From contig CP142456.1 in assembly GCA_038049695.1 (NCBI GenBank), positions 72,935,922 through 72,999,921 on the forward strand: 64,000 bases of DNA. Direction: 5' to 3'. The notes under the pieces were generated by a model. That model did no database searches and was not told the origin of the DNA. It saw nothing but the letters and a program-made list of their open reading frames with translations. Below are positions 1-64,000 of the stretch, piece by piece. How positions within the stretch are numbered: position 1 is the stretch's first letter; each line of letters begins with the position of its first letter. A program made the translations under genes and the position numbers. Origin of the DNA: Cinnamomum chago. Lineage: Eukaryota > Streptophyta > Magnoliopsida > Laurales > Lauraceae.

Positions 1-1100
1 TTAGAATTTTTGTCCTTTAGGCCCAAGGATCATAAGTTCGCTGTGAGGATATAATATTTCAAGCCTCATGTATAATAAGAATTGCGAAATTCATACAAAT
101 CTAGGCATATGGAATATCAACAATGGATAATGACTTCATTTAATAATTAAAGTTGCACAAAAGAATAAACAAAACTAACCAAGGAGTTAATTAATTACAC
201 TGGCACTACTCTAACACTAGAAGAAACTCGCTCATTATCTAAACCCACTTAAATATCTAAAATATAAATAATTATAATAATAATAAAATAAACGGGTCAA
301 TGGGCCTACTATTGGGCCCAACTGACCCAGTAAGGTCTTGGACCTTATAGAAAGTGGCTACCCAGATTTTTATTTTTTTCCATTTCTATTAAACATTACA
401 GGGCTGGACGGATTGATCATTAGACATTACAATCTTTTCATTGAGCTTTCAAACCGGTACCAACGGATGGATCAAAAACTTTGACAAGGAGAAGTTGATG
501 CTACACTTGGCCTGAAATCTAGCCAAACATCTTGACATCTAAAATACATACGCCAGAAATTCAAAATCAAGAAACCAGACGTCTAGAGTTGCGTTTAGAT
601 GTCAGGGGACAAGAAATCTAAAGATGATAGATGCCTAGGTTAATGTGAAGCAAAAGTTCCTTGTAGGGGATTTTATCGGAAAAACCCCCTTAAATTCGGT
701 GGAGACCAAAAACTAGAATGGTCATAGAGGCCCTTTTCAGTTTTTTTCTTTCTTTTATTGTATCGAGTAGCAATATTGCTGCTCCTCTGTAAATATTGGT
801 GCTCATTGCGTCACCTTCCTTCTTTTCTACTTTGCATGTCCACTATTCACTCATTCAACTAAGTAATGACGCTCAAATTATCTCCAAACTTCAAATCAAG
901 CAATCAATACTGCAAACGACCCAAATTATTATTGAATCATGAGCACTCATTTAAATTAAACAAACAACCCTTTGCCCCAAACGAGGAGACTTCCAGCTCA
1001 GAGCCATAAATATTCCTTTAGTATTACTTAAATTACAAAAACAAATACCTGGGATTTAGTAGAGGAGAAACTTCTCTAGCCAGAGAACTACACGACCAGT
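1..1100. other. AT-rich stretch with no recognisable gene
   Basis: I see no coding similarity here. Short open stretches exist (for example the part equivalent to 10193-10417 in U2) but lack family motifs. Short sub-repeats occur, such as the attgctgctc-type words near 775-815. This is where most U1-specific changes fall. Confidence 0.6.
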
Positions 1101-1109
1101 CTAGTTCTA

Positions 1110-1380
1110 TGGGCCCCACATACGCCCGCATTTGATCAATGCAGCTCCATTCGCAGTCTTTAGTCCCCATGATTTAGCACCATGTGCAACTTTGTGGTCA
1201 TCAAACCTTTCTTCGTCATTGGATTGAATTTCAATTTTCAAAATATCTACAGTTAAAAGACCATTAAATCTTAAGACTCTTAAATCGAGGACTACAATTG
1301 ACATTTTGCATGACCCTTATCGGTAAAAAGACCTTTCGCATCTACCTCTAATGGCACAAATGCATCCAAGTGGGCCCCAC
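1110..1380 (+). promoter_or_regulatory. Pair of TGGGCCCCAC motifs upstream of the terpene synthase fragment
   Basis: The 10-base word TGGGCCCCAC occurs at 1110-1119 and again at 1371-1380, about 640 and 380 bp before the start codon, and is conserved in all seven units. Its core contains TGGGCC, which in plants resembles the site II element bound by TCP-type factors. That link is from general knowledge; binding is not shown. The words could equally be leftovers of an older insertion. Confidence 0.25.
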
Positions 1381-1456
1381 GAGCTGGACTACAAGCAGAG
1401 TATGTGGTCTGCTCGTAGGTGAAGATTTTGATCCTTTAATTAGTAGGATTGGTTTT

Positions 1457-1683
1457 CTTTTAAATACTTCAGAAGAAAATTGGTCTCCTCTAGCAAACAA
1501 TCTCTTTTGGATTAGTAAACGGTTGCGACTGCTGAGTATTTAGGTAAAACATTCCTTTTGTGATTGAAACTAATATAAATACCAAGTTTTATAGCTAGCC
1601 AGACAGCTCAACGGCCTTAGCAAAAAACCCTTTTTGCTTGTCCTCTAGCAAACACATCCCTTTCCCACACACCTTTTAAATAC
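1457..1683 (+). repeat. Short duplicated words in the terpene synthase upstream region
   Basis: The 14-base word TCCTCTAGCAAACA occurs at 1486-1499 and 1641-1654. The word CTTTTAAATAC occurs at 1457-1467 and 1673-1683. In U2-U7 the first copy of the latter reads CTGTTAAATAC. The pairing suggests a small ancient duplication in the proximal promoter, though the two words are in opposite order in the two copies. Confidence 0.4.
1574..1682 (+). promoter_or_regulatory. Two TATA-like boxes before the terpene synthase start codon
   Basis: TATAAATA is at 1574-1581, 179 bp before the ATG, and TTTAAATA at 1675-1682, 78 bp before it. The first would give a leader of about 150 nt, the second about 45 nt. 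Both are retained in every unit. Which of them works, if either, cannot be read from the sequence. The choice matters because only the longer leader contains the upstream ATG at 1690. Confidence 0.4.
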
Positions 1684-1689
1684 CCAGCC

Positions 1690-1755
1690 ATGCCATGCTT
1701 TGATATATTCATACACATTTTAAATCAGATTTCCTTACACACACACACATTCTAG
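1690..1755 (+). other. Upstream ORF in the terpene synthase leader
   Basis: An ATG at 1690 opens a 21-codon frame that stops with TAG at 1753-1755, five bases before the main ATG at 1760. A second upstream ATG at 1695 stops after two codons. The 21-codon frame runs through the AC microsatellite, so its length depends on the number of AC units. In U6, with one AC fewer, the frame starting at 48729 misses the TAG and runs over the main start to a TAA at 48807-48809. It is relevant only if transcription begins upstream of 1690. Confidence 0.35.
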
Positions 1756-1759
1756 CAGT

Positions 1760-1903
1760 ATGGCTTCCCTAAGTTCCTCTCCTGTTGCTTCAGCCCTCCA
1801 TCCCACACCTCTAAATACAAACAAAAATGGTGCTGACCGTCCATCACCATTTCACCCTTCTGTTTGGGGAGATTACTTCCTTTCTTACTCCGACGGTCAC
1901 GAG
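1760..1903 (+). CDS. Terpene synthase exon 1 (partial CDS), U1
   Basis: It has 48 codons from ATG 1760 to the donor GAG|GTATAT at 1903/1904, in phase 0. I chose this ATG because it starts MASLSSSP, a common opening for the family, and lies about 35 residues before the conserved Trp (residue 36), as expected. The RP pair at residues 27-28 with Trp36 resembles the RP(X)8W signature of TPS-a enzymes but is one residue shorter. Reading past the donor gives a spurious 73-codon frame that stops at 1981. Confidence 0.85.
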
Positions 1904-2454
1904 GTATATATTCACACATTCTTTGTTTTGAGAAATGATCGCATGATGATGATTTTATACATGTCATGTCAACTACCGTGAGGCTCATCTTTGTTTGATC
2001 CAAGTCATTCATATCATGCAACTTCTCATGACGAGAAAGTCTCTCCAACTTTCATTCCATTAACTGGTTAATACGCAAATGTAAAGCAAAAGAGAGCTTG
2101 TTATGTTTGTGTATGTTTGTTTGTTTGTTAGATCCATTGTAGCGAAGGGATTTTTACAGTTTAGTATCTCTTAAACTTAATTTGCACATGAAAATGTTAC
2201 TAAAGACATAAAAAAATGTCACCAAAGTAACTTCACTGTATTTTATCTTTTCTAATTTTTGACAGTCTTGCCCATTCTTTGATCTGTGTTTTAACTTTTG
2301 AGGCTCTTTTTACCAAAATAAATAAATAAATTTTGAGGCCCTGAAGTGATTGAAGTATTATGTTGCAAGTAGGTTAACTTGTGTGATCGGGATTTAACCC
2401 CATCATTTACTACATTATAAGTTGTTTAGTTTGATCCCATCATATTCCTAGACC

Positions 2455-2710
2455 TTAAATGACCCCTCTACATTCCTGCTCAAGGAGGTTGTTTTGTTTT
2501 CCACCCCAGCCAAGGGGGCTGGGACCTACAATAGCACCTGGCACCCGCACACGTGAGAAGAAAGCCCGCACAAATGAAAAGAGAGTCTGCGTACACATGG
2601 AAAGGGAGTGTAAGCAGCTGAAAAGGGGTAACTTAAAAAAGGATCGAACTTTAGGTAGCTGAATGAGATTTGGAGTTGCCAATCAAGCAACCCCTTGTAC
2701 TCAAGAAAGT
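2455..2710 (-). mobile_element. Possible tRNA-derived SINE in intron 1 (minus strand)
   Basis: On the minus strand AGTTCGATCC (plus 2641-2650) is one base off the Pol III box B consensus GGTTCGANNC. A box A-like TTGCTTGATTGG (plus 2679-2690) lies 40 bp upstream of it, which is a normal A-to-B spacing. The downstream minus-strand body is comparatively GC-rich, with a CCAGCC..GGCTGG foldback at about 2507-2522. No target-site duplication or tail was established. It could instead be chance in an unusual GC-rich intron block. The equivalent in U2 starts at 11863, and all units carry it. Confidence 0.3.
2550..2555. promoter_or_regulatory. CACGTG G-box-like hexamer in intron 1
   Basis: A perfect CACGTG palindrome, the core recognised by plant bHLH and bZIP factors, sits in the GC-rich block of intron 1 in every unit. 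A hexamer is expected often by chance, so this is a weak observation. Confidence 0.15.
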
Positions 2711-2736
2711 TGGGTCCCAGTGCAGTTGGCTGCAGT

Positions 2737-2752
2737 AAAAAAAAAAAAAAAA
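2737..2752 (+). repeat. A16 homopolymer in intron 1
   Basis: A run of 16 A follows GGCTGCAGT. I counted exactly 16 A in all seven units. Homopolymers of this length change quickly, so the constant length points to very recent copying, or to consensus smoothing during assembly. Confidence 0.85.
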
Positions 2753-3029
2753 TCTTGACAGGGCTGAAAAATGATAACGGGCTTTATTTTTAGAAGATAA
2801 CGTCAGCCAGGTCAACACAAATCAGATGCATCTTATCCACCATTCTCCATGGGATATTTCCATCCGTCCTCAAAACATGATAGAACGTGGGGTATTAAGC
2901 AGGCCCCACAAGGAGGCCCTCCCTTCTATAGATTTGCAAAAAAGCATCACTTTTCTCATCTATCTTCCATGATAGAAATTATTATTTTTACCAACTAATC
3001 ACTTTTAATTTGCAATGGGACATGGACAG

Positions 3030-3285
3030 AAAATAGATGCATGGACTAGCAAGGTTGGAGAGTTGAAGGAAAAAGTGAAGAGGATGCTAATCACATCCAA
3101 GGGATCAGTTGAAGAAACGATCATGATTGATGACATCCAACGACTTGGAGTGGCCTATCACTTTGAAAAGGAGATCAACGACGCATTGGAACATATATAT
3201 GAGGCCAATGTTGATTATGATGATCTAAAAACAGTCGCTCTTCGATTCCAATTACCGAGGCAAAAGGGCTATAACATCTCTTGTG
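3030..3285 (+). CDS. Terpene synthase exon 2 (partial CDS), U1
   Basis: The acceptor is the CAG at 3027-3029, with a branch-point-like ACTAATC about 30 bp upstream. The exon is 256 bp, close to the usual length of exon 2 in this family, and ends TCTTGTG|GTAAAA in phase 1. That is the standard position after the GYN(V/I)SC block. The frame stays open into intron 2 and stops at 3345-3347, so an unspliced or prematurely polyadenylated transcript would encode a roughly 153-residue N-terminal fragment. The in-frame ATG at 3015 lies in the intron and is probably not a start. Confidence 0.87.
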
Positions 3286-3427
3286 GTAAAACTTCTTCAC
3301 TATTTTATATCACTCATTCTTGGCAAACTGGACAACAAACAAAATAATTAGATATATGTGGACATTTAATTACCAAAGGTAAGTGTGTCCCGCTATGGGG
3401 CCTATCGATATTTTATCCGGTAGGTAT

Positions 3428-3498
3428 GATACAATATGATTATTGTATCAATGGATCATGTTACATATAATTTCAAAGGTTCTTTCATTAACATGATC
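3428..3498. repeat. Two adjacent short hairpins downstream of exon 2
   Basis: GATACAAT (3428-3435) pairs with ATTGTATC (3442-3449) across a 6-base loop. GATCATGTTA (3454-3463) pairs perfectly with TAACATGATC (3489-3498). Both are kept in all units. They lie at the edge between the terpene synthase intron 2 remnant and the LTR-like segment. Confidence 0.55.
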
Positions 3499-3668
3499 TA
3501 CTTAGATTTACCAAAGATAAAGTACTACTTGGATTGAATCAATGGTGATGTATCCAAAACAATAAATCAATTCAAAACATAAAACATGTTAAGGACACAA
3601 CACAAACATAGTTTATCATGCTACAAATGATTTACCAAAAATAAAACAAAGCATGAAAAACATATGAT

Positions 3669-4170
3669 TAAGGAAAGTAGAGCCTACTTGGAGATTTAAC
3701 TTCATTAATCCAAGCTTTAGCTTTCCTAATGATCCCCTTCATCCCTTAGTTCATTTCCCTTCTATTTGCCTCAAAACCCCTCAAGGAGGGCCTTAAAATT
3801 CCCAACTTTTGGCAAAGGAAAGAACTCATATTTATAGCAAAAAGTGCCCAACGGCTAGTCCCCGGTCGACCTGCAAACAGGTCTCGGTCGATCGGGATCA
3901 CACAACGGTCAGAAATATGACCGTTGGTGCCCCAGGGCATTTTCTGCCTGCAGTGTTCCCGGTCGACCGGGACCCCTGGGCCGGTCAACCGGCCACACTG
4001 CTGGGACCAAAAAATTCAACTTTTGCATATTTCAAAGTTTATCTTTGTGGAACTTTTTGGACCATATAAGCAAGCTTAAAAACATGTTTTAAATCATTCT
4101 AAGGGTTTTAAAACATGAACCATAAAAAGCCTAAAACATTTTGAAAGATTTAAAACTCATAGGCTAGCTT
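3669..4170 (-). repeat. Left arm of the diverged inverted repeat (promoter-like)
   Basis: Read on the minus strand, this arm aligns in order with 6005-6480. Shared words include aaagcttggatt (plus 3707-3718 as complement; right arm 6426-6437, 12 of 12), agccgttgg (3848-3856; 6282-6290) and a ttaggc...ggttcat block (about 4095-4135; about 6045-6065). A TATAAATA box on the minus strand is at 3829-3836. Overall identity is modest, so the two arms are old relatives rather than a fresh duplication. Confidence 0.5.
3847..4000. repeat. GC-rich palindrome cluster
   Basis: In otherwise AT-rich DNA this block has a perfect 16-bp palindrome TCCCGGTCGACCGGGA (3957-3972), a hairpin CAACGGTCA/TGACCGTTG with a 6-base loop (3903-3926), a GACCTG/CAGGTC hairpin near 3869-3884 and a near-palindrome around GGCCGGTCAACCGGCC. 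Similar gtcgacc-rich blocks occur upstream of promoters in some plant LTR elements, which fits the fossil reading. It recurs in all seven units. Confidence 0.7.
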
Positions 4171-4599
4171 GATTTTCTAAAACTCTTTTCAAATCAAATG
4201 CATCCAAGATTAAAAACAAAACATGCATAAATCAAAACTTTTACAACTCTTAAAAACAATGCATGTTTAGAACAAGATTTCAAGATTTCTAAAATCAATG
4301 CATATGTGTGTGAATCAAATGATGCTAGAATGATTATGCATCCATCAAATTGCAATCTACAAAATTCCTAACAGTCATAACAGGCATACCATGATGACTT
4401 AGGAATCTAACTATGAGACAAATGGCGATCCATCTCTAGTCTCATAAATCTGGTATTAAAGTATCTTATGCACGATGAGGATGTCATGCATTATGCTCCT
4501 CCCACTATTTGATCACGGCTTCAAGTGCAGAGCTTCAATTGCAGTAATAACTGGTAAGACTAGGTCGATCCACATGGAGCTTTAGAAATAAGGCTTTCA

Positions 4600-5300
4600 A
4601 ACTCTGTCACATGCCCTAAATAAAATCTAATTTTAGCCTAAAATTTAGAAAAGTACATTCATCATTCCTACTTTAAACTAAAATTAAATACATTTCCAAA
4701 AATAAAATTTCCTAAATCTAAAAACCTAATCTAAAATGAATCACAAGTTGCTACAAAAGAACACACAAATTAGAAACAATCCAAAAATAAAACTTACCAA
4801 AAATAAAACTAAGAAGCTAAATTAAAAAAAAAATGAACCTAAGTTAGAAACCAAATCAATCAAAACATGCTCAACAAAGATTAGTAACAAATCAAATCAC
4901 TCAAAAAGAAAACAACCTACTTTCTAAAATTAGCATGCAAACCTTACTAAATTAGTTTCCTAAATTAGAAACTAGGTTAGTCAATTAGGGTTAATATATT
5001 TCCTAAGTTAGTGAATTGAGTTAATCAACTCCCTAAAGTTAAGGACTTTCCAAATAAATAAAGATTTTCAAATCTTAACAAATTTAGAAAGCACTAAGTC
5101 AATCATACCTTATGTTAGAATTTCCAAATCTTAAGAAACTTCCTAAGTTAAAATCTTCAATTAAAAAAAATTAGAAAGATCTTTTATTTGTGAAAATTAT
5201 CTAAATAATGTAAAACACAAAATCAAAAACTAATCCTAAAGTTAGAAAGTTAGTAATGCAATGTATGCCATGAGATGTTAGAAAATTCTAAGTCTAGAAA
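4600..5300. other. A-rich low-complexity block with recurrent cctaaatt/ttagaaa words
   Basis: There is strong A-over-T bias on the + strand, with many scattered copies of words such as ttagaaa, cctaaatt and cctaagtta and no regular period. No coding frame is present. It looks like noncoding internal DNA of the retroelement fossil. Confidence 0.6.
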
Positions 5301-6004
5301 ACTAGTATGCAAGGCTGTTTTTATGCATGATTTTTCCTAATCTAATGCAACCTAAAACTGAGTTTATTGGCTAGATTTTGAGCTACAATGATGTATGAAT
5401 CAAATAAAAAAAAAAACCAGAAGTGGAAAACGATTTAAAACGAATGAGATATGAGTGTATGATCATGACCTAAAAAAAAAACTATGCAGAAATTCTGCAC
5501 ACAGGTGGGTCCGACCAGCCATGTTTGAGCCACTGGTTCACCATCTTTCCAAAATTATTTTTGTTTGAAATTTGGGGGTTTAAAAATAAACTGATCAAAC
5601 TTTAATTTCCCAAAGTTTCATTGAAAAATAATGTGTTTTGATCAAGTTTCTAATCGCAAACTTTTTACACAAAATCTGTCCTGAAATTCCTGCAACAATG
5701 TGCTGAATTGTGGACTTTATATTCAGATCCAGATTTCCCAAAAAATATTTGGCCGAGATTATTGACTCAAATCTCTGATTTTTCTTGCTTATTCAATTTC
5801 AAACTCCGATTCCGGCAACTTAAACATATCTAAACTCCACCAATATGAATATGCATGCAATGCTAATTAGTACCAACCATAAACTATGCATAAAAATTCA
5901 CATAAACATATAAGAAGCAAAAGAAGAAAAGAAAACAACAAATGATTGAATTTAAATGTGTGGATTGCCTTTGTAATTGAAAAATTATGAATTGAAAATT
6001 TATT

Positions 6005-6480
6005 TTAATCATGAATGCCATGATCTTAGAATTTCAAAATCATCTTAGGCATTGATAGGTTCATATTTTGGAAAACACTTTTTGGATTTATTTAAACATG
6101 AAACCAAGCATGACTTCCATGACCTAAAATCCCACTTTGAAAATCACTTTCATTTCAAAAAATCTACTAGTAGATCACCAGTAGGTCAGCAGGAGTTCAG
6201 CCTACCTGAGGTCGGCTAGCCGCCTGTATATGTTAGTGACCGTTAGAATATGACCGTTAGACGTCGGCTAGTGGCCCAAAGAGCCGTTGGAACCTTTTTT
6301 TTACTATATATTTGAACCTATTCCTTGGGTTTTGAGCCAACACAATTGAATCTTTTGAGGTGTTTTGGAACCTAAGGAAGGAGAATCGATTAAGGAAGGC
6401 TTATGGGTCACTTAATTGGAAAGCAAAAGCTTGGATTCATTAGTAAAATCAATCTAAGTGGGTAAGATTTGTATTGAAGG
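6005..6480 (+). repeat. Right arm of the diverged inverted repeat (promoter-like)
   Basis: This is the plus-strand counterpart of 3669-4170, with a TATATATT box at 6305-6312 downstream of an accgttag...agccgttgg block. It also contains a perfect 14-bp palindrome ATCTACTAGTAGAT at 6162-6175, which has no equivalent in the left arm. The two arms would fire outward: the left toward the terpene synthase fragment on its antisense strand, the right toward the hAT-like element. Confidence 0.5.
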
Positions 6481-6907
6481 CCTATTTTAAACTTCCATTT
6501 ACTTGGCTCAAATAATCACATTCAAAGAATAAATCCAGATGAAGCTTATTAGTGTATGTTACTTGTAGATGTAGTGGTGATAACTTCAAAACAATAAATC
6601 AAGTTAATGGAAAAAAACTTGCAAAAGCACTTTTTACTTAGGGTTTATTTGTTTTCATTGAATATACATAGGAATTAATGGTCAAATGAGATTTTCAAAT
6701 TAACAAGGGTTATTAAAGAGCCAAGGGCGAAGAAAATGAGGTGTGAGGTGAAAGATGTATGGAAGCTATCTATATGGGACCCTGACTTTCATACTATATA
6801 TTTAAATTAATGAGGGCTGGATATTCACCTTTGACATTTCATTTTTAACGACTTATATAAATATACTCTTAAAATTCTTAGGAATTCAATTACATGAACC
6901 ACACAAG

Positions 6908-8364
6908 CTTTTAGGGCCTGTTCTTTACAACAATTCATAGAGTTTTTCTCTGGAAAATTTCAAAATCTCCGACAGCTATACCCTAATGTGGAATTCCTAA
7001 ATCCTCCTCTTGAATGGAACATTTGAAATTCAAGAAAAATGCATAGAGATTCCCATCATTAATTGGGAACAAATGTAACATCATATACTTAACACCATTT
7101 CGTCTCTGATAAAAAAAGATTTCTTTGATCACTCAACTAACATTCTGAATATTTTATGCCTAGAAAATGGATATTAAATGTTTCTATGCAAGATTGAGGG
7201 CCTACTCATTTAAGGATGAGTTAGAAAAAACACCACCTTAATCCAAATCAAACATGCGTGATTACAAAGATAGCAAGTGTAAACCACATAACGTACCGAG
7301 TAGAAGCACTTGATGTAACAACTCTCTCCGTTTTAATTTCTTATTAACTTCTTAGGGTAACACGAGGAGGAGTATGTTTATAATGATGCATTTTTAATAG
7401 CATTTTAGAATCTTAAATCCACAATTTCCTCTTATGTAGTGCAATGTGGTGATCATCATATCACGAGTTTTGAAAATAGCACTTATATTTTTCTTTTATA
7501 AAGATTGATTCTAATTGTGATTTTGACAATCCCATTATAATTCATAAAAGATGTTATTTGTATTATATTACATGTGCTAGACGCCGGTAGGTTAATTAAG
7601 CTAGTCTTAAAGATTTTTGAGATTTTCACAATTGATAGTGCAGTTTTTAAAGACTTGTTTCTTTGCAAGAATTTCTGACAGGAATTTAGGCTGTCTGTGC
7701 ATTCCTGAATTGTAGTCGGAAATTCCATGTTCACTTGCTTGCATTCCCAGCATTTGAGGCAAGTAGTATTTTGAAATTCCAAAAAAGTGGAATTCCCAAA
7801 TGCTCGCCTTGACTCCAGCATTTACAAATTCAAGCATTCTGAGAGGCTTGTTGGAACTTCGGCTCTCCCCCAACGATTGATTTTAATCTTCTCCTCTATT
7901 CTACTGTAACAAAATCAAGTCCAGACATCTTCTTCCTCCACCCTCCTTTCATATGTTTGCCTATTTTTCTCTTTTTTATTTTATTTTGCTGCATGCAATT
8001 TTTTCTAGAGGGTTTTGATGGAATGGAAAGAAGAAGGGTTTTTTTGGGGTCTTAATGGAATGGAATCAGTGGGTTCTCTTAGATCTGAACCGGATGGTAA
8101 GTTACAGGGGCTATTTGGTTGGATGGATGGATTGATTTGTGGCTTGTGTTGGCTGAGAGATGAAGAAATTCAAATGGATATGAAGTCGAAAATTTTTGGA
8201 GTTTAGGTAGCCTGAAATTCTCAGGGAGGAATTCTGGCCTAAAAGAAACAAAAAATTTAGGAATACCAGAATTAATAGGATTTTAAAATTCCACCATCTC
8301 AAATTCTACAAGTTCCAACATACATGAATTCTAAAAATTAATGCAAAGAAACAGGCCCGAAAAG
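6908..8364. mobile_element. hAT-like non-autonomous DNA transposon, U1
   Basis: The ends are imperfect terminal inverted repeats. The left end reads CTTTTAGGGCCTGTTCTTTA (6908-6927), and the right end, read on the minus strand, CTTTTCGGGCCTGTTTCTTT (8345-8364). GGGCCTGTT-type ends are common in plant hAT-related elements. Both subterminal zones are packed with ggaattcc/aaattcc-type words (for example near 6990, 7717, 7770, 7788 and 8227), as expected for hAT transposase-binding arrays. No transposase similarity is visible, so it would depend on enzyme from elsewhere. An 8-bp target duplication was not found, so the exact ends and superfamily are provisional. Reading frames inside, such as minus-strand 7483-7821, resemble nothing I recognise. 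Confidence 0.5.
8018..8096 (+). pseudogene. Possible captured first exon inside the hAT-like element
   Basis: A pyrimidine-rich, leader-like stretch (about 7920-8010) is followed by ATG at 8018 and 26 codons starting MEWKEEGFFWGLNG. A textbook splice donor GATG|GTAAGT follows at 8096/8097. Base composition changes from AT-rich to G-rich here. The combination resembles a host gene 5' end picked up by a transposon (Pack-type capture). I do not recognise the protein, and 26 codons is too short to be sure. The frame runs on to a stop at 8204-8206. The Leu codon near 8150 in U1 is Pro in U2-U6, but that lies past the donor. Confidence 0.3.
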
Positions 8365-8369
8365 TTAAG

Positions 8370-8750
8370 CAAAGAAATAATGTGAAACTTTCCCTTGTCC
8401 TTCTCCATATTTCTCTTATTTCTATTGGCTGAGTTGTTATTTCATTTTCTGGGTCCCTTTTCTTTTCCAACTTCAACGTAACACTACTCGTGGATAGGAT
8501 CAACATCAAGTCAGAATTGCTTTATTACCATAGGAACACTCCATTTCACGAGGAGTACTGTCTAGAGTTTATTAGACATTCTCACCTAAAAAAAGACAAC
8601 ATATTTTTTTATGTGGCTCACCTCGCTTCTCCTACATAGTTGGCACCAATCTATTTCACAATAATTTTATATGTACTTGCTAGTAAGAGTTGGAATATAA
8701 AAAGAATCGATTAATTTAAAGAAGATTGTACTTTGTGGCTAATTTTTATT
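8370..8750. other. AT-rich spacer with no recognisable gene
   Basis: I see nothing assignable between the hAT-like element and the tRNA-like relic. The base at 8482 is C in U1 and U2 and A in U3-U6, which makes it a useful marker. Confidence 0.6.
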
Positions 8751-8815
8751 GGATTGTTGTAGCTCAGCTAGTTAGGGTAAATGTCAGAATGCACGAGTTC
8801 AAATGAACAATTGTG
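8751..8815 (+). mobile_element. tRNA-like relic, probably a SINE head, U1
   Basis: TAGCTCAGCTAGTTAGGG at 8760-8777 matches the Pol III box A/D-arm pattern of tRNA genes closely. GAGTTCAAATG at 8795-8805 is a degenerate box B, 35 bp downstream, which is normal tRNA spacing. An acceptor-like pairing ATTGT/ACAAT brackets it. The T-arm stem does not pair properly and no good anticodon arm forms, so it is not a working tRNA. It is more likely the head of an old tRNA-derived SINE whose body runs on toward about 8930. Confidence 0.45.
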
Positions 8816-8929
8816 TTCTGCTCAAAGGAGAAAATTCACCAGTTAATATCAAGATAGTTATGAATTAAAAGTCGTCAGAACTTTGGGTTTCTCTTGGATT
8901 ATTGATGGAAATTAATGAAAAAAAATAAA

Positions 8930-9396
8930 AATAGGAAAGGAATAAAACATATTTGAAATCTTCACTCATATTGAAATATTCTTACTTTTGACGGTGTTTT
9001 TCACTTTCGTGCTGCACTTTTTGCTTAGGGGCTTGGTTTGGATAGGTGATTTTTGTGGGAGTGGTGGTCTCAGTGAAAAAAAAAATGAAAAACAAGCTTT
9101 TCCTATATTTAAAGCAATCCTAAAAATTCTAATCCTGTAAAAGGGGCTTCAATTAAAAAGTAAAACCGAAGAACCACAAATAGCCATTAAATAGTTTATT
9201 CGTAGATTAGAAAAACTAAAAGCAAGAAAAATCACAAGACTTGCAAAGAGTAAGTTTAGATGAGTAAAATGAAGTTTGACTTAGGTGAGGAAGCTTTTGG
9301 GTGAAAAAAATAGCCACAAGTGAGGTAGGAAGGTGTCACGTCCCCAGAACCCAATTAGAGAATAAACCGGATCCTTAGAGTGAAATTTAGGACTAA
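8930..9396. other. AT-rich stretch with no recognisable gene
   Basis: I see no gene. A ggcttggtttggatagg word near 9030-9046 and a GTGTCACGTCCCC word near 9333-9345 look like transposon-end fragments, but neither has a partner end within the unit. Confidence 0.5.
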
Positions 9397-11167
9397 TTAG
9401 AATTTTTGTCCTTTAGGCCCAAGGATCATAAGTTCGCTGTGAGGATATAATATTTCAAGCCTCATGTATAATAAGAATTGCGAAGTTCATACAAATCTAG
9501 GCATATGGAATATCAACAATGGATAATGACTTCATTTAATAATTAAAGTTGCACAAAAGAATAAACAAAACTAACCAAGGAGTTAATTAATTACACTGGC
9601 ACTACTCTAACACTAGAAGAAACTCGCTCATTATCTAAACTCACTTAAATATCTAAAATATAAATAATTATAAAAATAATAAAATAAACGGGTCAATGGG
9701 CCTACTATTGGGCCCAACTGACCCCAGTAAGGTCTTGGACCTTATAGAAAGTGGCTACCCAGATTTTTATTTTTTTCCATTTCTATTAAACATTACAGGG
9801 CTGGACGGATTGATCATTAGACATTACAATCTTTTCATTGAGCTTTCAAACCGGTACCAACGGATGGATCAAAAACTTTGACAAGGAGAAGTTGATGCTA
9901 CACTTGGCCTGAAATCTAGCCAAACATCTTGACATCTAAAATACATACGCCAGAAATTCAAAATCAAGAAACCAGACGTCTAGAGTTGCGTTTAGATGTC
10001 AGGGGACAAGAAATCTAAAGATGATAGATGCCTAGGTTAATGTGAAGCAAAAGTTCCTTGTAGGGGATTTTATCGGAAAAACCCCCTTAAATTCGGTGGA
10101 GACCAAAAACTAGAATGGTCATAGAGGCTCTTTTCAGTTTTTTTCTTTCTTTTATTGTATCGAGTAGCAATATTGCTGCTCCTCTGTAAATATTGCTGCT
10201 CATTGCGTCACCTTCCTTCTTTTCTACTTTGCATGTCCACTATTCACTCATTCAACTAAGTAATGACGCATCTTGTTCTCTTAAATTATCTCCAAACTTC
10301 AAATCAAGCAATCAATACTGCAAACGACCCAAATTATTGTTGAATCATGAGCGCTCATTTAAATTAAACAAACAACCCTTTGCCCCAAACGAGGAGACTT
10401 CCAGCTCAGAGCCATAAATATTCCTTTAGTATTACTTAAATTACAAAAACAAATACCTGGGATTTAGTAGAGGAGAAACTTCTCTAGCCAGAGAACTACA
10501 CGACCAGTCTAGTTCTATGGGCCCCACATACGCCCGCATTTGATCAATGCAGCTCCATTCGCAGTCTTTAGTCCCCATGATTTAGCACCATGTGCAACTT
10601 TGTGGTCATCAAACCTTTCTTCGTCATTGGATTGAATTTCAATTTTCAAAATATCTACAGTTAAAAGACCATTAAATCTTAAGACTCTTAAATCGAGGAC
10701 TACAATTGACATTTTGCATGACCCTTATCGGTAAAAAGACCTTTCGCATCTACCTCTAATGGCACAAATGCATCCAAGTGGGCCCCACGAGCTGGACTAC
10801 AAGCAGAGTATGTGGTCTGCTCGTAGGTGAAGATTTTGATCCTTTAATTAGTAGGATTGGTTTTCTGTTAAATACTTCAGAAGAAAATTGGTCTCCTCTA
10901 GCAAACAATCTCTTTTGGATTAGTAAACGGTTGCGACTGCTGAGTATTTAGGTAAAACATTCCTTTTGTGATTGAAACTAATATAAATACCAAGTTTTAT
11001 AGCTAGCCAGACAGCTCAACGGCCTTAGCAAAAAACCCTTTTTGCTTGTCCTCTAGCAAACACATCCCTTTCCCACACACCTTTTAAATACCCAGCCATG
11101 CCATGCTTTGATATATTCATACACATTTTAAATCAGATTTCCTTACACACACACACATTCTAGCAGT

Positions 11168-12693: not shown

Positions 12694-12767
12694 GTAAAAC
12701 TTCTTCACTATTTTATATCACTCATTCTTGGCAAACTGGACAACAAACAAAATAATTAGATATATGT

Positions 12768-16068: not shown

Positions 16069-16315
16069 AATATACATAGGAATTAATGGTCAAATGAGAT
16101 TTTCAAATTAACAAGGGTTATTAAAGAGCCAAGGGCGAAGAAAATGAGGTGTGAGGTGAAAGATGTATGGAAGCTATCTATATGGGACCCTGACTTTCAT
16201 ACTATATATTTAAATTAATGAGGGCTGGATATTCACCTTTGACATTTCATTTTTAACGACTTATATAAATATACTCTTAAAATTCTTAGGAATTCAATTA
16301 CATGAACCACACAAG

Positions 16316-46381: not shown

Positions 46382-46446
46382 GGATTGTTGTAGCTCAGCT
46401 AGTTAGGGTAAATGTCAGAATGCACGAGTTCAAATGAACAATTGTG
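46382..46446 (+). mobile_element. tRNA-like relic, U5
   Basis: Copy of 8751-8815 with box A as in U1 and U2 (TAGCTCAG), unlike U3 and U4. Confidence 0.45.
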
Positions 46447-50322: not shown

Positions 50323-50396
50323 GTAAAACTTCTTCACTATTTTATATCACTCATTCTTGGCAAACTGGACAACAAACAAAATAATTAGATATATGT

Positions 50397-53300: not shown

Positions 53301-53697
53301 TCGGCTAGTGGCCCAAAGAGCCGTTGGAACCTTTTTTTTACTATATATTTGAACCTATTCCTTGGGTTTTGAGCCAACACAATTGAATCTTTTGAGGTGT
53401 TTTGGAACCTAAGGAAGGAGAATCGATTAAGGAAGGCTTATGGGTCACTTAATTGGAAAGCAAAAGCTTGGATTCATTAGTAAAATCAATCTAAGTGGGT
53501 AAGATTTGTATTGAAGGCCTATTTTAAACTTCCATTTACTTGGCTCAAATAATCACATTCAAAGAATAAATCCAGATGAAGCTTATTAGTGTATGTTACT
53601 TGTAGATGTAGTGGTGATAACTTCAAAACAATAAATCAAGTTAATGGAAAAAAACTTGCAAAAGCACTTTTTACTTAGGGTTTATTTGTTTTCATTG
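50397..53697. mobile_element. Fossil LTR-retrotransposon-like DNA, U6
   Basis: Copy of 3360-6660 with no private change noticed. Confidence 0.35.
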
Positions 53698-53944
53698 AAT
53701 ATACATAGGAATTAATGGTCAAATGAGATTTTCAAATTAACAAGGGTTATTAAAGAGCCAAGGGCGAAGAAAATGAGGTGTGAGGTGAAAGATGTATGGA
53801 AGCTATCTATATGGGACCCTGACTTTCATACTATATATTTAAATTAATGAGGGCTGGATATTCACCTTTGACATTTCATTTTTAACGACTTATATAAATA
53901 TACTCTTAAAATTCTTAGGAATTCAATTACATGAACCACACAAG

Positions 53945-55401
53945 CTTTTAGGGCCTGTTCTTTACAACAATTCATAGAGTTTTTCTCTGGAAAATTTCAA
54001 AATCTCCGACAGCTATACCCTAATGTGGAATTCCTAAATCCTCCTCTTGAATGGAACATTTGAAATTCAAGAAAAATGCATAGAGATTCCCATCATTAAT
54101 TGGGAACAAATGTAACATCATATACTTAACACCATTTCGTCTCTGATAAAAAAAGATTTCTTTGATCACTCAACTAACATTCTGAATATTTTATGCCTAG
54201 AAAATGGATATTAAATGTTTCTATGCAAGATTGAGGGCCTACTCATTTAAGGATGAGTTAGAAAAAACACCACCTTAATCCAAATCAAACATGCGTGATT
54301 ACAAAGATAGCAAGTGTAAACCACATAACGTACCGAGTAGAAGCACTTGATGTAACAACTCTCTCCGTTTTAATTTCTTATTAACTTCTTAGGGTAACAC
54401 GAGGAGGAGTATGTTTATAATGATGCATTTTTAATAGCATTTTAGAATCTTAAATCCACAATTTCCTCTTATGTAGTGCAATGTGGTGATCATCATATCA
54501 CGAGTTTTGAAAATAGCACTTATATTTTTCTTTTATAAAGATTGATTCTAATTGTGATTTTGACAATCCCATTATAATTCATAAAAGATGTTATTTGTAT
54601 TATATTACATGTGCTAGACGCCGGTAGGTTAATTAAGCTAGTCTTAAAGATTTTTGAGATTTTCACAATTGATAGTGCAGTTTTTAAAGACTTGTTTCTT
54701 TGCAAGAATTTCTGACAGGAATTTAGGCTGTCTGTGCATTCCTGAATTGTAGTCGGAAATTCCATGTTCACTTGCTTGCATTCCCAGCATTTGAGGCAAG
54801 TAGTATTTTGAAATTCCAAAAAAGTGGAATTCCCAAATGCTCGCCTTGACTCCAGCATTTACAAATTCAAGCATTCTGAGAGGCTTGTTGGAACTTCGGC
54901 TCTCCCCCAACGATTGATTTTAATCTTCTCCTCTATTCTACTGTAACAAAATCAAGTCCAGACATCTTCTTCCTCCACCCTCCTTTCATATGTTTGCCTA
55001 TTTTTCTCTTTTTTATTTTATTTTGCTGCATGCAATTTTTTCTAGAGGGTTTTGATGGAATGGAAAGAAGAAGGGTTTTTTTGGGGTCTTAATGGAATGG
55101 AATCAGTGGGTTCTCTTAGATCTGAACCGGATGGTAAGTTACAGGGGCTATTTGGTTGGATGGATGGATTGATTTGTGGCTTGTGTTGGCCGAGAGATGA
55201 AGAAATTCAAATGGATATGAAGTCGAAAATTTTTGGAGTTTAGGTAGCCTGAAATTCTCAGGGAGGAATTCTGGCCTAAAAGAAACAAAAAATTTAGGAA
55301 TACCAGAATTAATAGGATTTTAAAATTCCACCATCTCAAATTCTACAAGTTCCAACATACATGAATTCTAAAAATTAATGCAAAGAAACAGGCCCGAAAA
55401 G
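53945..55401. mobile_element. hAT-like non-autonomous DNA transposon, U6
   Basis: Copy of 6908-8364. The exon-like piece is at 55055-55133. Confidence 0.5.
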
Positions 55402-55787
55402 TTAAGCAAAGAAATAATGTGAAACTTTCCCTTGTCCTTCTCCATATTTCTCTTATTTCTATTGGCTGAGTTGTTATTTCATTTTCTGGGTCCCTTTTCT
55501 TTTCCAACTTCAACGTAAAACTACTCGTGGATAGGATCAACATCAAGTCAGAATTGCTTTATTACCATAGGAACACTCCATTTCACGAGGAGTACTGTCT
55601 AGAGTTTATTAGACATTCTCACCTAAAAAAAGACAACATATTTTTTTATGTGGCTCACCTCGCTTCTCCTACATAGTTGGCACCAATCTATTTCACAATA
55701 ATTTTATATGTACTTGCTAGTAAGAGTTGGAATATAAAAAGAATCGATTAATTTAAAGAAGATTGTACTTTGTGGCTAATTTTTATT

Positions 55788-55852
55788 GGATTGTTGTAGC
55801 TCAGCTAGTTAGGGTAAATGTCAGAATGCACGAGTTCAAATGAACAATTGTG
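55788..55852 (+). mobile_element. tRNA-like relic, U6
   Basis: Copy of 8751-8815 with box A intact. Confidence 0.45.
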
Positions 55853-58204
55853 TTCTGCTCAAAGGAGAAAATTCACCAGTTAATATCAAGATAGTTATGA
55901 ATTAAAAGTCGTCAGAACTTTGGGTTTCTCTTGGATTATTGATGGAAATTAATGAAAAAAAATAAAAATAGGAAAGGAATAAAACATATTTGAAATCTTC
56001 ACTCATATTGAAATATTCTTACTTTTAACGGTGTTTTTCACTTTCGTGCTGCACTTTTTGCTTAGGGGCTTGGTTTGGATAGGTGATTTTTGTGGGAGTG
56101 GTGGTCTCAGTGAAAAAAAAAATGAAAAACAAGCTTTTCCTATATTTAAAGCAATCCTAAAAATTCTAATCCTGTAAAAGGGGCTTCAATTAAAAAGTAA
56201 AACCGAAGAACCACAAATAGCCATTAAATAGTTTATTCGTAGATTAGAAAAACTAAAAGCAAGAAAAATCACAAGACTTGCAAAGAGTAAGTTTAGATGA
56301 GTAAAATGAAGTTTGACTTAGGTGAGGAAGCTTTTGGGTGAAAAAAATAGCCACAAGTGAGGTAGGAAGGTGTCACGTCCCCAGAACCCAATTAGAGAAT
56401 AAACCGGATCCTTAGAGTGAAATTTAGGACTAATTAGAATTTTTGTCCTTTAGGCCCAAGGATCATAAGTTCGCTGTGAGGATATAATATTTCAAGCCTC
56501 ATGTATAATAAGAATTGCGAAGTTCATACAAATCTAGGCATATGGAATATCAACAATGGATAATGACTTCATTTAATAATTAAAGTTGCACAAAAGAATA
56601 AACAAAACTAACCAAGGAGTTAATTAATTACACTGGCACTACTCTAACACTAGAAGAAACTCGCTCATTATCTAAACTCACTTAAATATCTAAAATATAA
56701 ATAATTATAAAAATAATAAAATAAACGGGTCAATGGGCCTACTATTGGGCCCAACTGACCCCAGTAAGGTCTTGGACCTTATAGAAAGTGGCTACCCAGA
56801 TTTTTATTTTTTTCCATTTCTATTAAACATTACAGGGCTGGACGGATTGATCATTAGACATTACAATCTTTTCATTGAGCTTTCAAACCGGTACCAACGG
56901 ATGGATCAAAAACTTTGACAAGGAGAAGTTGATGCTACACTTGGCCTGAAATCTAGCCAAACATCTTGACATCTAAAATACATACGCCAGAAATTCAAAA
57001 TCAAGAAACCAGACGTCTAGAGTTGCGTTTAGATGTCAGGGGACAAGAAATCTAAAGATGATAGATGCCTAGGTTAATGTGAAGCAAAAGTTCCTTGTAG
57101 GGGATTTTATCGGAAAAACCCCCTTAAATTCGGTGGAGACCAAAAACTAGAATGGTCATAGAGGCTCTTTTCAGTTTTTTTCTTTCTTTTATTGTATCGA
57201 GTAGCAATATTGCTGCTCCTCTGTAAATATTGCTGCTCATTGCGTCACCTTCCTTCTTTTCTACTTTGCATGTCCACTATTCACTCATTCAACTAAGTAA
57301 TGACGCATCTTGTTCTCTTAAATTATCTCCAAACTTCAAATCAAGCAATCAATACTGCAAACGACCCAAATTATTGTTGAATCATGAGCGCTCATTTAAA
57401 TTAAACAAACAACCCTTTGCCCCAAACGAGGAGACTTCCAGCTCAGAGCCATAAATATTCCTTTAGTATTACTTAAATTACAAAAACAAATACCTGGGAT
57501 TTAGTAGAGGAGAAACTTCTCTAGCCAGAGAACTACACGACCAGTCTAGTTCTATGGGCCCCACATACGCCCGCATTTGATCAATGCAGCTCCATTCGCA
57601 GTCTTTAGTCCCCATGATTTAGCACCATGTGCAACTTTGTGGTCATCAAACCTTTCTTCGTCATTGGATTGAATTTCAATTTTCAAAATATCTACAGTTA
57701 AAAGACCATTAAATCTTAAGACTCTTAAATCGAGGACTACAATTGACATTTTGCATGACCCTTATCGGTAAAAAGACCTTTCGCATCTACCTCTAATGGC
57801 ACAAACGCATCCAAGTGGGCCCCACGAGCTGGACTACAAGCAGAGTATGTGGTCTGCTCGTAGGTGAAGATTTTGATCCTTTAATTAGTAGGATTGGTTT
57901 TCTGTTAAATACTTCAGAAGAAAATTGGTCTCCTCTAGCAAACAATCTCTTTTGGATTAGTAAACGGTTGCGACTGCTGAGTATTTAGGTAAAACATTCC
58001 TTTTGTGATTGAAACTAATATAAATACCAAGTTTTATAGCTAGCCAGACAGCTCAACGGCCTTAGCAAAAAACCCTTTTTGCTTGTCCTCTAGCAAACAC
58101 ATCCCTTTCCCACACACCTTTTAAATACCCAGCCATGCCATGCTTTGATATATTCATACACATTTTAAATCAGATTTCCTTACACACACACACATTCTAG
58201 CAGT

Positions 58205-59730
58205 ATGGCTTCCCTAAGTTCCTCTCCTGTTGCTTCAGCCCTCCATCCCACACCTCTAAATACAAACAAAAATGGTGCTGACCGTCCATCACCATTTCAC
58301 CCTTCTGTTTGGGGAGATTACTTCCTTTCTTACTCCGACGGTCACGAGGTATATATTCACACATTCTTTGTTTTGAGAAATGATCGCATGATGATGATTT
58401 TATACATGTCATGTCAACTACCGTGAGGCTCATCTTTGTTTGATCCAAGTCATTCATATCATGCAACTTCTCATGACGAGAAAGTCTCTCCAACTTTCAT
58501 TCCATTAACTGGTTAATACGCAAATGTAAAGCAAAAGAGAGCTTGTTATGTTTGTGTATGTTTGTTTGTTTGTTAGATCCATTGTAGCGAAGGGATTTTT
58601 ACAGTTTAGTATCTCTTAAACTTAATTTGCACATGAAAATGTTACTAAAGACATAAAAAAATGTCACCAAAGTAACTTCACTGTATTTTATCTTTTCTAA
58701 TTTTTGACAGTCTTGCCCATTCTTTGATCTGTGTTTTAACTTTTGAGGCTCTTTTTACCAAAATAAATAAATAAATTTTGAGGCCCTGAAGTGATTGAAG
58801 TATTATGTTGCAAGTAGGTTAACTTGTGTGATCGGGATTTAACCCCATCATTTACTACATTATAAGTTGTTTAGTTTGATCCCATCATATTCCTAGACCT
58901 TAAATGACCCCTCTACATTCCTGCTCAAGGAGGTTGTTTTGTTTTCCACCCCAGCCAAGGGGGCTGGGACCTACAATAGCACCTGGCACCCGCACACGTG
59001 AGAAGAAAGCCCGCACAAATGAAAAGAGAGTCTGCGTACACATGGAAAGGGAGTGTAAGCAGCTGAAAAGGGGTAACTTAAAAAAGGATCGAACTTTAGG
59101 TAGCTGAATGAGATTTGGAGTTGCCAATCAAGCAACCCCTTGTACTCAAGAAAGTTGGGTCCCAGTGCAGTTGGCTGCAGTAAAAAAAAAAAAAAAATCT
59201 TGACAGGGCTGAAAAATGATAACGGGCTTTATTTTTAGAAGATAACGTCAGCCAGGTCAACACAAATCAGATGCATCTTATCCACCATTCTCCATGGGAT
59301 ATTTCCATCCGTCCTCAAAACATGATAGAACGTGGGGTATTAAGCAGGCCCCACAAGGAGGCCCTCCCTTCTATAGATTTGCAAAAAAGCATCACTTTTC
59401 TCATCTATCTTCCATGATAGAAATTATTATTTTTACCAACTAATCACTTTTAATTTGCAATGGGACATGGACAGAAAATAGATGCATGGACTAGCAAGGT
59501 TGGAGAGTTGAAGGAAAAAGTGAAGAGGATGCTAATCACATCCAAGGGATCAGTTGAAGAAACGATCATGATTGATGACATCCAACGACTTGGAGTGGCC
59601 TATCACTTTGAAAAGGAGATCAACGACGCATTGGAACATATATATGAGGCCAATGTTGATTATGATGATCTAAAAACAGTCGCTCTTCGATTCCAATTAC
59701 TGAGGCAAAAGGGCTATAACATCTCTTGTG
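58205..59730 (+). pseudogene. Terpene synthase 5' fragment (exons 1-2), U7
   Basis: Exon 1 is 58205-58348 and exon 2 is 59475-59730, consensus form. Downstream of exon 2 this last visible copy enters the same LTR-like DNA as the others, so it too lacks exon 3. If an intact parent gene closes the array, it is further on. Confidence 0.9.
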
Positions 59731-59804
59731 GTAAAACTTCTTCACTATTTTATATCACTCATTCTTGGCAAACTGGACAACAAACAAAATAATTAGATAT
59801 ATGT

Positions 59805-62800
59805 GGACATTTAATTACCAAAGGTAAGTGTGTCCCGCTATGGGGCCTATCGATATTTTATCCGGTAGGTATGATACAATATGATTATTGTATCAATGGA
59901 TCATGTTACATATAATTTCAAAGGTTCTTTCATTAACATGATCTACTTAGATTTACCAAAGATAAAGTACTACTTGGATTGAATCAATGGTGATGTATCC
60001 AAAACAATAAATCAATTCAAAACATAAAACATGTTAAGGACACAACACAAACATAGTTTATCATGCTACAAATGATTTACCAAAAATAAAACAAAGCATG
60101 AAAAACATATGATTAAGGAAAGTAGAGCCTACTTGGAGATTTAACTTCATTAATCCAAGCTTTAGCTTTCCTAATGATCCCCTTCATCCCTTAGTTCATT
60201 TCCCTTCTATTTGCCTCAAAACCCCTCAAGGAGGGCCTTAAAATTCCCAACTTTTGGCAAAGGAAAGAACTCATATTTATAGCAAAAAGTGCCCAACGGC
60301 TAGTCCCCGGTCGACCTGCAAACAGGTCTCGGTCGATCGGGATCACACAACGGTCAGAAATATGACCGTTGGTGCCCCAGGGCATTTTCTGCCTGCAGTG
60401 TTCCCGGTCGACCGGGACCCCTGGGCCGGTCAACCGGCCACACTGCTGGGACCAAAAAATTCAACTTTTGCATATTTCAAAGTTTATCTTTGTGGAACTT
60501 TTTGGACCATATAAGCAAGCTTAAAAACATGTTTTAAATCATTCTAAGGGTTTTAAAACATGAACCATAAAAAGCCTAAAACATTTTGAAAGATTTAAAA
60601 CTCATAGGCTAGCTTGATTTTCTAAAACTCTTTTCAAATCAAATGCATCCAAGATTAAAAACAAAACATGCATAAATCAAAACTTTTACAACTCTTAAAA
60701 ACAATGCATGTTTAGAACAAGATTTCAAGATTTCTAAAATCAATGCATATGTGTGTGAATCAAATGATGCTAGAATGATTATGCATCCATCAAATTGCAA
60801 TCTACAAAATTCCTAACAGTCATAACAGGCATACCATGATGACTTAGGAATCTAACTATGAGACAAATGGCGATCCATCTCTAGTCTCATAAATCTGGTA
60901 TTAAAGTATCTTATGCACGATGAGGATGTCATGCATTATGCTCCTCCCACTATTTGATCACGGCTTCAAGTGCAGAGCTTCAATTGCAGTAATAACTGGT
61001 AAGACTAGGTCGATCCACATGGAGCTTTAGAAATAAGGCTTTCAAACTCTGTCACATGCCCTAAATAAAATCTAATTTTAGCCTAAAATTTAGAAAAGTA
61101 CATTCATCATTCCTACTTTAAACTAAAATTAAATACATTTCCAAAAATAAAATTTCCTAAATCTAAAAACCTAATCTAAAATGAATCACAAGTTGCTACA
61201 AAAGAACACACAAATTAGAAACAATCCAAAAATAAAACTTACCAAAAATAAAACTAAGAAGCTAAATTAAAAAAAAAATGAACCTAAGTTAGAAACCAAA
61301 TCAATCAAAACATGCTCAACAAAGATTAGTAACAAATCAAATCACTCAAAAAGAAAACAACCTACTTTCTAAAATTAGCATGCAAACCTTACTAAATTAG
61401 TTTCCTAAATTAGAAACTAGGTTAGTCAATTAGGGTTAATATATTTCCTAAGTTAGTGAATTGAGTTAATCAACTCCCTAAAGTTAAGGACTTTCCAAAT
61501 AAATAAAGATTTTCAAATCTTAACAAATTTAGAAAGCACTAAGTCAATCATACCTTATGTTAGAATTTCCAAATCTTAAGAAACTTCCTAAGTTAAAATC
61601 TTCAATTAAAAAAAATTAGAAAGATCTTTTATTTGTGAAAATTATCTAAATAATGTAAAACACAAAATCAAAAACTAATCCTAAAGTTAGAAAGTTAGTA
61701 ATGCAATGTATGCCATGAGATGTTAGAAAATTCTAAGTCTAGAAAACTAGTATGCAAGGCTGTTTTTATGCATGATTTTTCCTAATCTAATGCAACCTAA
61801 AACTGAGTTTATTGGCTAGATTTTGAGCTACAATGATGTATGAATCAAATAAAAAAAAAAACCAGAAGTGGAAAACGATTTAAAACGAATGAGATATGAG
61901 TGTATGATCATGACCTAAAAAAAAAACTATGCAGAAATTCTGCACACAGGTGGGTCCGACCAGCCATGTTTGAGCCACTGGTTCACCATCTTTCCAAAAT
62001 TATTTTTGTTTGAAATTTGGGGGTTTAAAAATAAACTGATCAAACTTTAATTTCCCAAAGTTTCATTGAAAAATAATGTGTTTTGATCAAGTTTCTAATC
62101 GCAAACTTTTTACACAAAATCTGTCCTGAAATTCCTGCAACAATGTGCTGAATTGTGGACTTTATATTCAGATCCAGATTTCCCAAAAAATATTTGGCCG
62201 AGATTATTGACTCAAATCTCTGATTTTTCTTGCTTATTCAATTTCAAACTCCGATTCCGGCAACTTAAACATATCTAAACTCCACCAATATGAATATGCA
62301 TGCAATGCTAATTAGTACCAACCATAAACTATGCATAAAAATTCACATAAACATATAAGAAGCAAAAGAAGAAAAGAAAACAACAAATGATTGAATTTAA
62401 ATGTGTGGATTGCCTTTGTAATTGAAAAATTATGAATTGAAAATTTATTTTAATCATGAATGCCATGATCTTAGAATTTCAAAATCATCTTAGGCATTGA
62501 TAGGTTCATATTTTGGAAAACACTTTTTGGATTTATTTAAACATGAAACCAAGCATGACTTCCATGACCTAAAATCCCACTTTGAAAATCACTTTCATTT
62601 CAAAAAATCTACTAGTAGATCACCAGTAGGTCAGCAGGAGTTCAGCCTACCTGAGGTCGGCTAGCCGCCTGTATATGTTAGTGACCGTTAGAATATGACC
62701 GTTAGACGTCGGCTAGTGGCCCAAAGAGCCGTTGGAACCTTTTTTTTACTATATATTTGAACCTATTCCTTGGGTTTTGAGCCAACACAATTGAATCTTT

Positions 62801-63105
62801 TGAGGTGTTTTGGAACCTAAGGAAGGAGAATCGATTAAGGAAGGCTTATGGGTCACTTAATTGGAAAGCAAAAGCTTGGATTCATTAGTAAAATCAATCT
62901 AAGTGGGTAAGATTTGTATTGAAGGCCTATTTTAAACTTCCATTTACTTGGCTCAAATAATCACATTCAAAGAATAAATCCAGATGAAGCTTATTAGTGT
63001 ATGTTACTTGTAGATGTAGTGGTGATAACTTCAAAACAATAAATCAAGTTAATGGAAAAAAACTTGCAAAAGCACTTTTTACTTAGGGTTTATTTGTTTT
63101 CATTG
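59805..63105. mobile_element. Fossil LTR-retrotransposon-like DNA, U7
   Basis: Copy of 3360-6660, complete within the window. Confidence 0.35.
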
Positions 63106-63352
63106 AATATACATAGGAATTAATGGTCAAATGAGATTTTCAAATTAACAAGGGTTATTAAAGAGCCAAGGGCGAAGAAAATGAGGTGTGAGGTGAAAGA
63201 TGTATGGAAGCTATCTATATGGGACCCTGACTTTCATACTATATATTTAAATTAATGAGGGCTGGATATTCACCTTTGACATTTCATTTTTAACGACTTA
63301 TATAAATATACTCTTAAAATTCTTAGGAATTCAATTACATGAACCACACAAG

Positions 63353-64000
63353 CTTTTAGGGCCTGTTCTTTACAACAATTCATAGAGTTTTTCTCTGGAA
63401 AATTTCAAAATCTCCGACAGCTATACCCTAATGTGGAATTCCTAAATCCTCCTCTTGAATGGAACATTTGAAATTCAAGAAAAATGCATAGAGATTCCCA
63501 TCATTAATTGGGAACAAATGTAACATCATATACTTAACACCATTTCGTCTCTGATAAAAAAAGATTTCTTTGATCACTCAACTAACATTCTGAATATTTT
63601 ATGCCTAGAAAATGGATATTAAATGTTTCTATGCAAGATTGAGGGCCTACTCATTTAAGGATGAGTTAGAAAAAACACCACCTTAATCCAAATCAAACAT
63701 GCGTGATTACAAAGATAGCAAGTGTAAACCACATAACGTACCGAGTAGAAGCACTTGATGTAACAACTCTCTCCGTTTTAATTTCTTATTAACTTCTTAG
63801 GGTAACACGAGGAGGAGTATGTTTATAATGATGCATTTTTAATAGCATTTTAGAATCTTAAATCCACAATTTCCTCTTATGTAGTGCAATGTGGTGATCA
63901 TCATATCACGAGTTTTGAAAATAGCACTTATATTTTTCTTTTATAAAGATTGATTCTAATTGTGATTTTGACAATCCCATTATAATTCATAAAAGATGTT
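63353..64000. mobile_element. hAT-like DNA transposon, U7, cut by the window end
   Basis: The left terminal repeat and first 648 bp of the copy of 6908-8364 are present. The right end lies outside the window. Confidence 0.48.

Follow-up and report, generated by a model that had tools for sequence, protein, structure and literature searches.

A plant genome segment made up of near-identical 9.4-kb units raises the question of whether such an array is a satellite in its own right, an assembly error or the remains of something else. The segment in question lies on contig CP142456.1 (here C6) of Cinnamomum chago, assembly GCA_038049695.1. The window, that is the whole stretch of DNA that was analysed, is 64,000 bases long (C6:72,935,922-72,999,921), and its coordinates are C6 coordinates minus 72,935,921. 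A sequence-only reading had described it as a head-to-tail macrosatellite of seven copies, possibly comparable to ribosomal DNA (rDNA). Following a search of the genome (1,061,006,199 bases in 14 contigs), we consider the window to be, with a probability of about 0.86, a slice of a terpene-synthase tandem cluster in which a truncated pseudogene form has been re-amplified into a sub-array.

Repeat units of the window

Autocorrelation of the window, which is free of N bases, peaks at 9,408 bp and near multiples of this length. The second copy (s02) serves as the reference unit, u. When u was used as a BLAST query, six complete copies and 7,567 bp of a seventh were found back to back, with no spacer and with 99.75-100% identity to u. 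Their limits, from BLAST, are as follows.

1-9396, + strand: short unit s01, the array-edge copy and the most divergent, with 12 bp deleted (BLAST and copy comparison)
9397-18804, + strand: short unit s02, reference unit u, 9,408 bp
18805-28212, + strand: short unit s03
28213-37619, + strand: short unit s04
37620-47027, + strand: short unit s05
47028-56433, + strand: short unit s06
56434-64000, + strand: short unit s07, initial 7,567 bp, the rest lying beyond the window end

The spacer-free order that had been read from the sequence is correct, with the amendment that the seventh copy is incomplete. An A16 run, said to be present in every unit, occurs in all seven copies (at 2737, 12145, 21553, 30961, 40368, 49774 and 59182). 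The units had also been said to differ by a few bases per 9.4 kb. This is true of s02-s12, 11 copies of which the window holds five in full and one in part, with 0-8 substitutions per pair and a mean of 3.5 per 9,408 bp (0.037%). It is not true of s01, which shows 13-18 substitutions and deletions of 11 bp and 1 bp against the others. The array consists of near-identical head-to-tail units of more than 1 kb, as a macrosatellite does; it fills the window, as reported, and also extends about 1.0 kb before and about 160 kb past it.

The complex, gene-fragment-bearing nature of the unit was borne out by the frame at window 12417-12755, which encodes a terpene synthase N-terminal domain (E = 5e-26). 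A weak match of this frame to a viral exonuclease family, under the cut-off, was discarded, and four other scanned frames of the short unit gave no domain match.

The whole array and its two unit types

Stitched loci place the whole array at C6:72,934,916-73,159,499. It begins with a 1.0-kb piece (from C6:72,934,916, at position 8403 of u, or u8403), followed by 12 complete short units, s01-s12, at C6:72,935,922-73,048,804. Long units follow directly; l1-l6 are complete and l7 ends prematurely at C6:73,159,499. Four complete long units measure 16,952-16,955 bp, and inserts lengthen the other two, l1 (19,461 bp) and l5 (19,306 bp). No N bases occur over C6:72,890,001-73,140,000, which includes the border between short and long units.

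The two unit types are collinear over u1-3470, u4386-6471 and u6468-9408, and only two intervals break this collinearity. In the first, 915 bp of the short unit stand against 7,163 bp of the long unit. In the second, the long units compared have 1,277 bp and the short unit has none, the joint being located in s02 as follows.

15864-15867, no strand: joint of the 1,277-bp difference, a 4-bp BLAST overlap

The part lost from the short units includes, in l4, a 186-bp segment that is 83% identical to its own reverse complement and resembles a small foldback element (l4 7323-7508, C6:73109494-73109679).

When window 1-1000 was compared with the genome, 40 of 2,877 first-look candidates were scored, a sample in which weaker repeats are undercounted. 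Nineteen of the 40 were 98-100% identical and all lay at C6 72.93-73.16 Mb, i.e. in this array. The other 21 were 86-93% identical: 12, located on C2 or C3, fell within window 350-1000, and three of these adjoin a terpene-synthase exon on C3 (25.646, 25.691 and 25.725 Mb); nine (90-93%, six contigs) matched window 1-204, a short dispersed repeat within the unit.

Whole and fragmentary terpene-synthase genes

The gene of the long unit has seven exons of 144, 256, 373, 219, 139, 249 and 294 bp, with GT/AG borders inspected in l4. Joined, they form a frame of 558 codons, stop included, which is open in all six complete long units. The l3-l6 proteins are identical; compared with l4, l2 has one amino-acid change and l1 has four, arising from six exon substitutions. 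In l7 the gene has exons 1-3 only. Both class I terpene synthase domains were recognised above the Pfam cut-off in the l4 protein (PF03936, 318 bits, E = 6e-95; PF01397, 194 bits, E = 2e-57), and an NCBIfam scan gave one match only, far under its cut-off. The uninterrupted l4 frame contains DDIFD and DDIQSNEHE, which we take to be the aspartate-rich and the NSE-type metal motif, and the amino-acid changes listed for l1 and l2 spare both. The best relatives of the l4 protein in the PDB are (-)-cyperene synthase (546 bits), delta-cadinene synthase (542 bits) and vetispiradiene synthase (515 bits). By these nearest relatives the gene appears to encode a sesquiterpene-type synthase, presumably of a TPS-a-like class, and all six whole genes are likely to yield enzyme.

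All 12 short units have exons 1 and 2 only, an open stretch of 133 codons placed in the window as follows.

11168-11311, + strand: terpene-synthase exon 1, 144 bp from ATG, s02
1760-1903, 20576-20719, 29984-30127, 39391-39534, 48797-48940 and 58205-58348, + strand: exon 1 in the other copies
12438-12693, + strand: terpene-synthase exon 2, 256 bp, s02
3030-3285, 21846-22101, 31254-31509, 40661-40916, 50067-50322 and 59475-59730, + strand: exon 2 in the other copies

Exons 3-7, which encode the metal-binding catalytic domain, were found in none of the 12, and the short units thus lack the domain by which a functional terpene synthase is recognised. They are most likely pseudogenes, which at best would give a truncated, non-catalytic N-terminal product.

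The truncation joint

In place of exons 3-7 the short units carry part of an element resembling a long terminal repeat (LTR), adjoining an 8-bp microhomology.

12859-12866, + strand: 8-bp microhomology ATGGATCA at the deletion joint, s02
12867-13781, + strand: 915-bp 3' part of the LTR-like element, replacing exons 3-7, s02
3459-4373 (s01), 22275-23189 (s03), 31683-32597 (s04), 41090-42004 (s05), 50496-51410 (s06) and 59904-60818 (s07), + strand: the same 915-bp part in the other copies

Intron 2 of the long unit contains the octamer ATGGATCA, as does the interior of each related LTR-like insert in l1 and l5. These inserts, of about 2.3 kb, have TG...CA ends and 5-bp target duplications (GCCCC and TGGTT), and we take them to be solo LTRs. 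The 915 bp belong to a dispersed family, with 12 full matches in the array and 28 at 92-97% elsewhere (40 of 6,321 candidates scored); the 28 outside copies extend to query position 916-918. A further 23 short matches, at 71-75% and on the opposite strand, lie within positions 401-535 of the query. With a query across the right edge, 28 outside matches stop at 132-137 of 251, which is the joint, and one further weak second match ends at 123 (40 of 2,467 scored). With a query across the left edge there were four outside matches (22 of 22 scored), of which three start at 192, one base ahead of ATGGATCA, and the fourth, an adjoining one, at 257.

The insert is flanked by GATCA and GTCAT, a mismatch where a solo LTR would have a target duplication, and it is a truncated piece because its left end is internal to the element. 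The short unit thus keeps the 3' part of an LTR-like element, which is complete on the right, where GTCAT follows, and cut at the octamer on the left. Simple insertion of a solo LTR, suggested by TGTTA...TAACA, was rejected, as the flanks differ and related elements run on leftward; recombination between LTRs was dropped on the same grounds. For random breakpoints in the unit and in the insert of l1, used as a stand-in, at least 8 shared bases have a probability of 0.0003 in a test that was picked after the joint had been seen.

An inverted copy of the LTR-like family (78-86%) also lies at C6:72933984-72934891, 25 bp short of position 72934916, where the array begins on its left side.

Exchange between units and age of the array

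Six variants are common to 2-6 of the 12 short units, and five of the six occur in neighbours (permutation p = 0.0016, a guide only, because variants within one copy are not independent). At u89, u245, u278, u943 and u957 the bases are A, C, T, A and A in s01 and l3-l7 but G, T, A, G and G in s02-s12 and l1-l2; therefore one block has crossed the border between short and long units. G at u1664 is found in s11, s12 and l1, and G at u800 in s01 and l7 only. The border-crossing block and the older states in edge copies together suggest that exchange has homogenised both parts of the array. The most divergent copies (s01, l1 and l7) sit at the edges of the sub-arrays. Among the long units, l2, l3, l4 and l6 differ by 0.08-0.21% (l1, l5 and l7 excluded); the two edge copies of the long part, l1 and l7, are further removed from l4.

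Between s08 and l4 the difference is 0.43% in u1-3462 (15 of 3,460 sites), 0.72% in u4386-6467, 0.88% in u6472-8402 and 1.0% in u8403-9408. In exons 1 and 2 the short units differ from the whole genes at one of 400 positions in 10 of the 12 copies and at two in s01 and s05. At an assumed rate of 6.5e-9 substitutions per site per year, 1% would correspond to about 0.8 million years and 0.037% to about 30,000 years, and because of exchange both ages may look younger than the duplications. The neighbour-shared variants and the block across the border support the earlier suggestion of very recent amplification or active homogenisation.

Origin of the array and alternative explanations

The simplest course of events to account for the array is as follows. 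A gene-bearing segment of about 17 kb would first have been duplicated head to tail, and an LTR-like element of about 2.3 kb would have inserted downstream of the gene in one copy. Next, exons 3-7 and the beginning of the element would have been lost by a deletion that joined the ATGGATCA octamer of intron 2 to the one within the element; the joint is observed, and the deletion itself is what we infer from it. Unequal crossing over, gene conversion or both would have multiplied the shortened unit, also without the 1,277 bp, until there were 12 complete copies, and would have swapped sequence with the adjoining long units too.

Several points weigh against this account. No copy representing the intermediate stage, with the downstream element still entire, was seen, and for this reason the order of events is a deduction. 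Differences between the copies of the whole gene are too few to show purifying selection. One of the six shared variants, T at u8166, links the array ends s01 and s12 rather than neighbours; as l1-l6 also have T, we take this base to be the older one and C to have spread among s02-s11. The copy number is as assembled, from one assembly, and about 27.7 kb (s07 u8806 to s10 u8320, worked out by hand) hold no variant that tells periods apart, so that the number of units there may err in either direction.

This last point bears on the improbable case that the assembler falsely multiplied one or a few units. In keeping with it, s08 and s09 are identical and s06 is only 2 bp away from both. However, private and neighbour-shared variants occur in order along the array, and an N-free passage leads into a second, structurally distinct sub-array with inserts of its own. 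The concern is thus lessened for the array as such, and the exact copy number stays as assembled. An independent satellite or macrosatellite, whether rDNA-like or structural, with its own function and a merely captured gene fragment, would fit the unit size, head-to-tail order and homogeneity, but it is very improbable. The 19 matches at 98-100% among those scored are confined to this array, the unit is collinear with units holding whole genes, and the left flank has amino-acid-permease and enoyl-CoA-hydratase frames and so is not inside a satellite block. An array of structured RNA genes, as the comparison with rDNA would imply, was rejected: Rfam gave no match at gathering score in window 1-20000, the part scanned, which holds two complete units, and no transfer RNA was found in the 64,000 bases. 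Rather than rDNA-like, the window is best described as the 5' part of a terpene-synthase cluster whose other part has six whole genes.

A regulatory role of the short sub-array, as a source of small RNA, a silencer, an enhancer or a transcription-factor decoy for the whole genes, is unlikely but deserves mention. Twelve copies of promoter and exons 1-2 lie directly 5' of the six whole genes, whose own upstream region and first two exons they match at about 99.5% identity. In maize, tandem repeats at b1 generate small interfering RNAs (siRNAs) and are required for paramutation (PMC3798267). It is conceivable, if doubtful, that the 12 units form a self-maintaining control array whose number sets small RNA, chromatin silencing or factor titration; equally speculative is that continued exchange would keep them matched in sequence to their target genes. 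Against a regulatory role, exchange alone accounts for the homogeneity.

Comparison with known systems

Terpene-synthase tandem clusters, gene-bearing macrosatellites and pseudogenes are all known kinds of locus. With tandem clusters of what we presume to be the same TPS-a class, the array shares adjoining duplicated genes, terpene synthase domains, seven exons, and DDxxD-type and NSE-type metal motifs. It differs from them in that 12 of the 19 copies are one near-identical truncated form in a regular 9.4-kb array.

The primate macrosatellites D4Z4/DUX4 (PMC8350899) and ELOA3 (PMC10664989) are likewise head-to-tail units carrying coding sequence, whereas here degenerate units of a metabolic gene stand beside whole genes. 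The poplar NRX1 array, with seven genes in about 100 kb, is another plant tandem array of very similar genes, but the start of its abstract mentions no re-amplified truncated sub-array (PMC10460964). Maize b1 also has gene-linked tandem repeats, but the siRNA and silencing role belongs to b1, and any role of the short units here is hypothetical (PMC3798267). In titles and abstract starts we found no truncated-gene sub-array homogenised together with a whole-gene sub-array, which is weak evidence of novelty.

The locus shows side by side what may be the stages from gene cluster to satellite-like repeat, namely whole-gene units, a single truncating joint and re-amplification. With this arrangement, in which exchange has passed between both unit forms, unequal exchange, edge effects and the influence of pseudogene arrays on living neighbours could be tested directly.

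Surroundings and relatives in the genome

Six of the 14 longest listed frames of the left flank were scanned in Pfam. Two match amino-acid permeases (one under the cut-off), one an enoyl-CoA hydratase and one a copia-type gag, and two have beta-propeller matches under the cut-off only. From the permease, hydratase and gag frames, the array therefore sits among genes and transposons.

A genome search for the terpene-synthase N-terminal domain, in which 150 of 299 candidates were scored and counts are a lower bound, gave at least 160 matches, compared with none in 14 control genomes. Counts of this kind overstate the number of enzymes here, because the 12 short units and the truncated l7 have the exon of the domain without a whole gene. 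Among the candidates scored, clusters also occur on C2, C3, C7, C10 and C11. A search with the Rubisco large subunit gave five short matches, on C2, C3 and C10, consistent with the plant origin that the terpene-synthase genes indicate. Many matches fall at C2 66.5-69.0 Mb, C10 49.5-52.3 Mb and C11 3.14-3.28 Mb, which are large clusters of the family. At C7:7487446-7640383, five N-terminal exons of about equal score (85 bits) lie some 30-39 kb apart, and this region would be a second terpene-synthase tandem array, whose copies are possibly near-identical as well.

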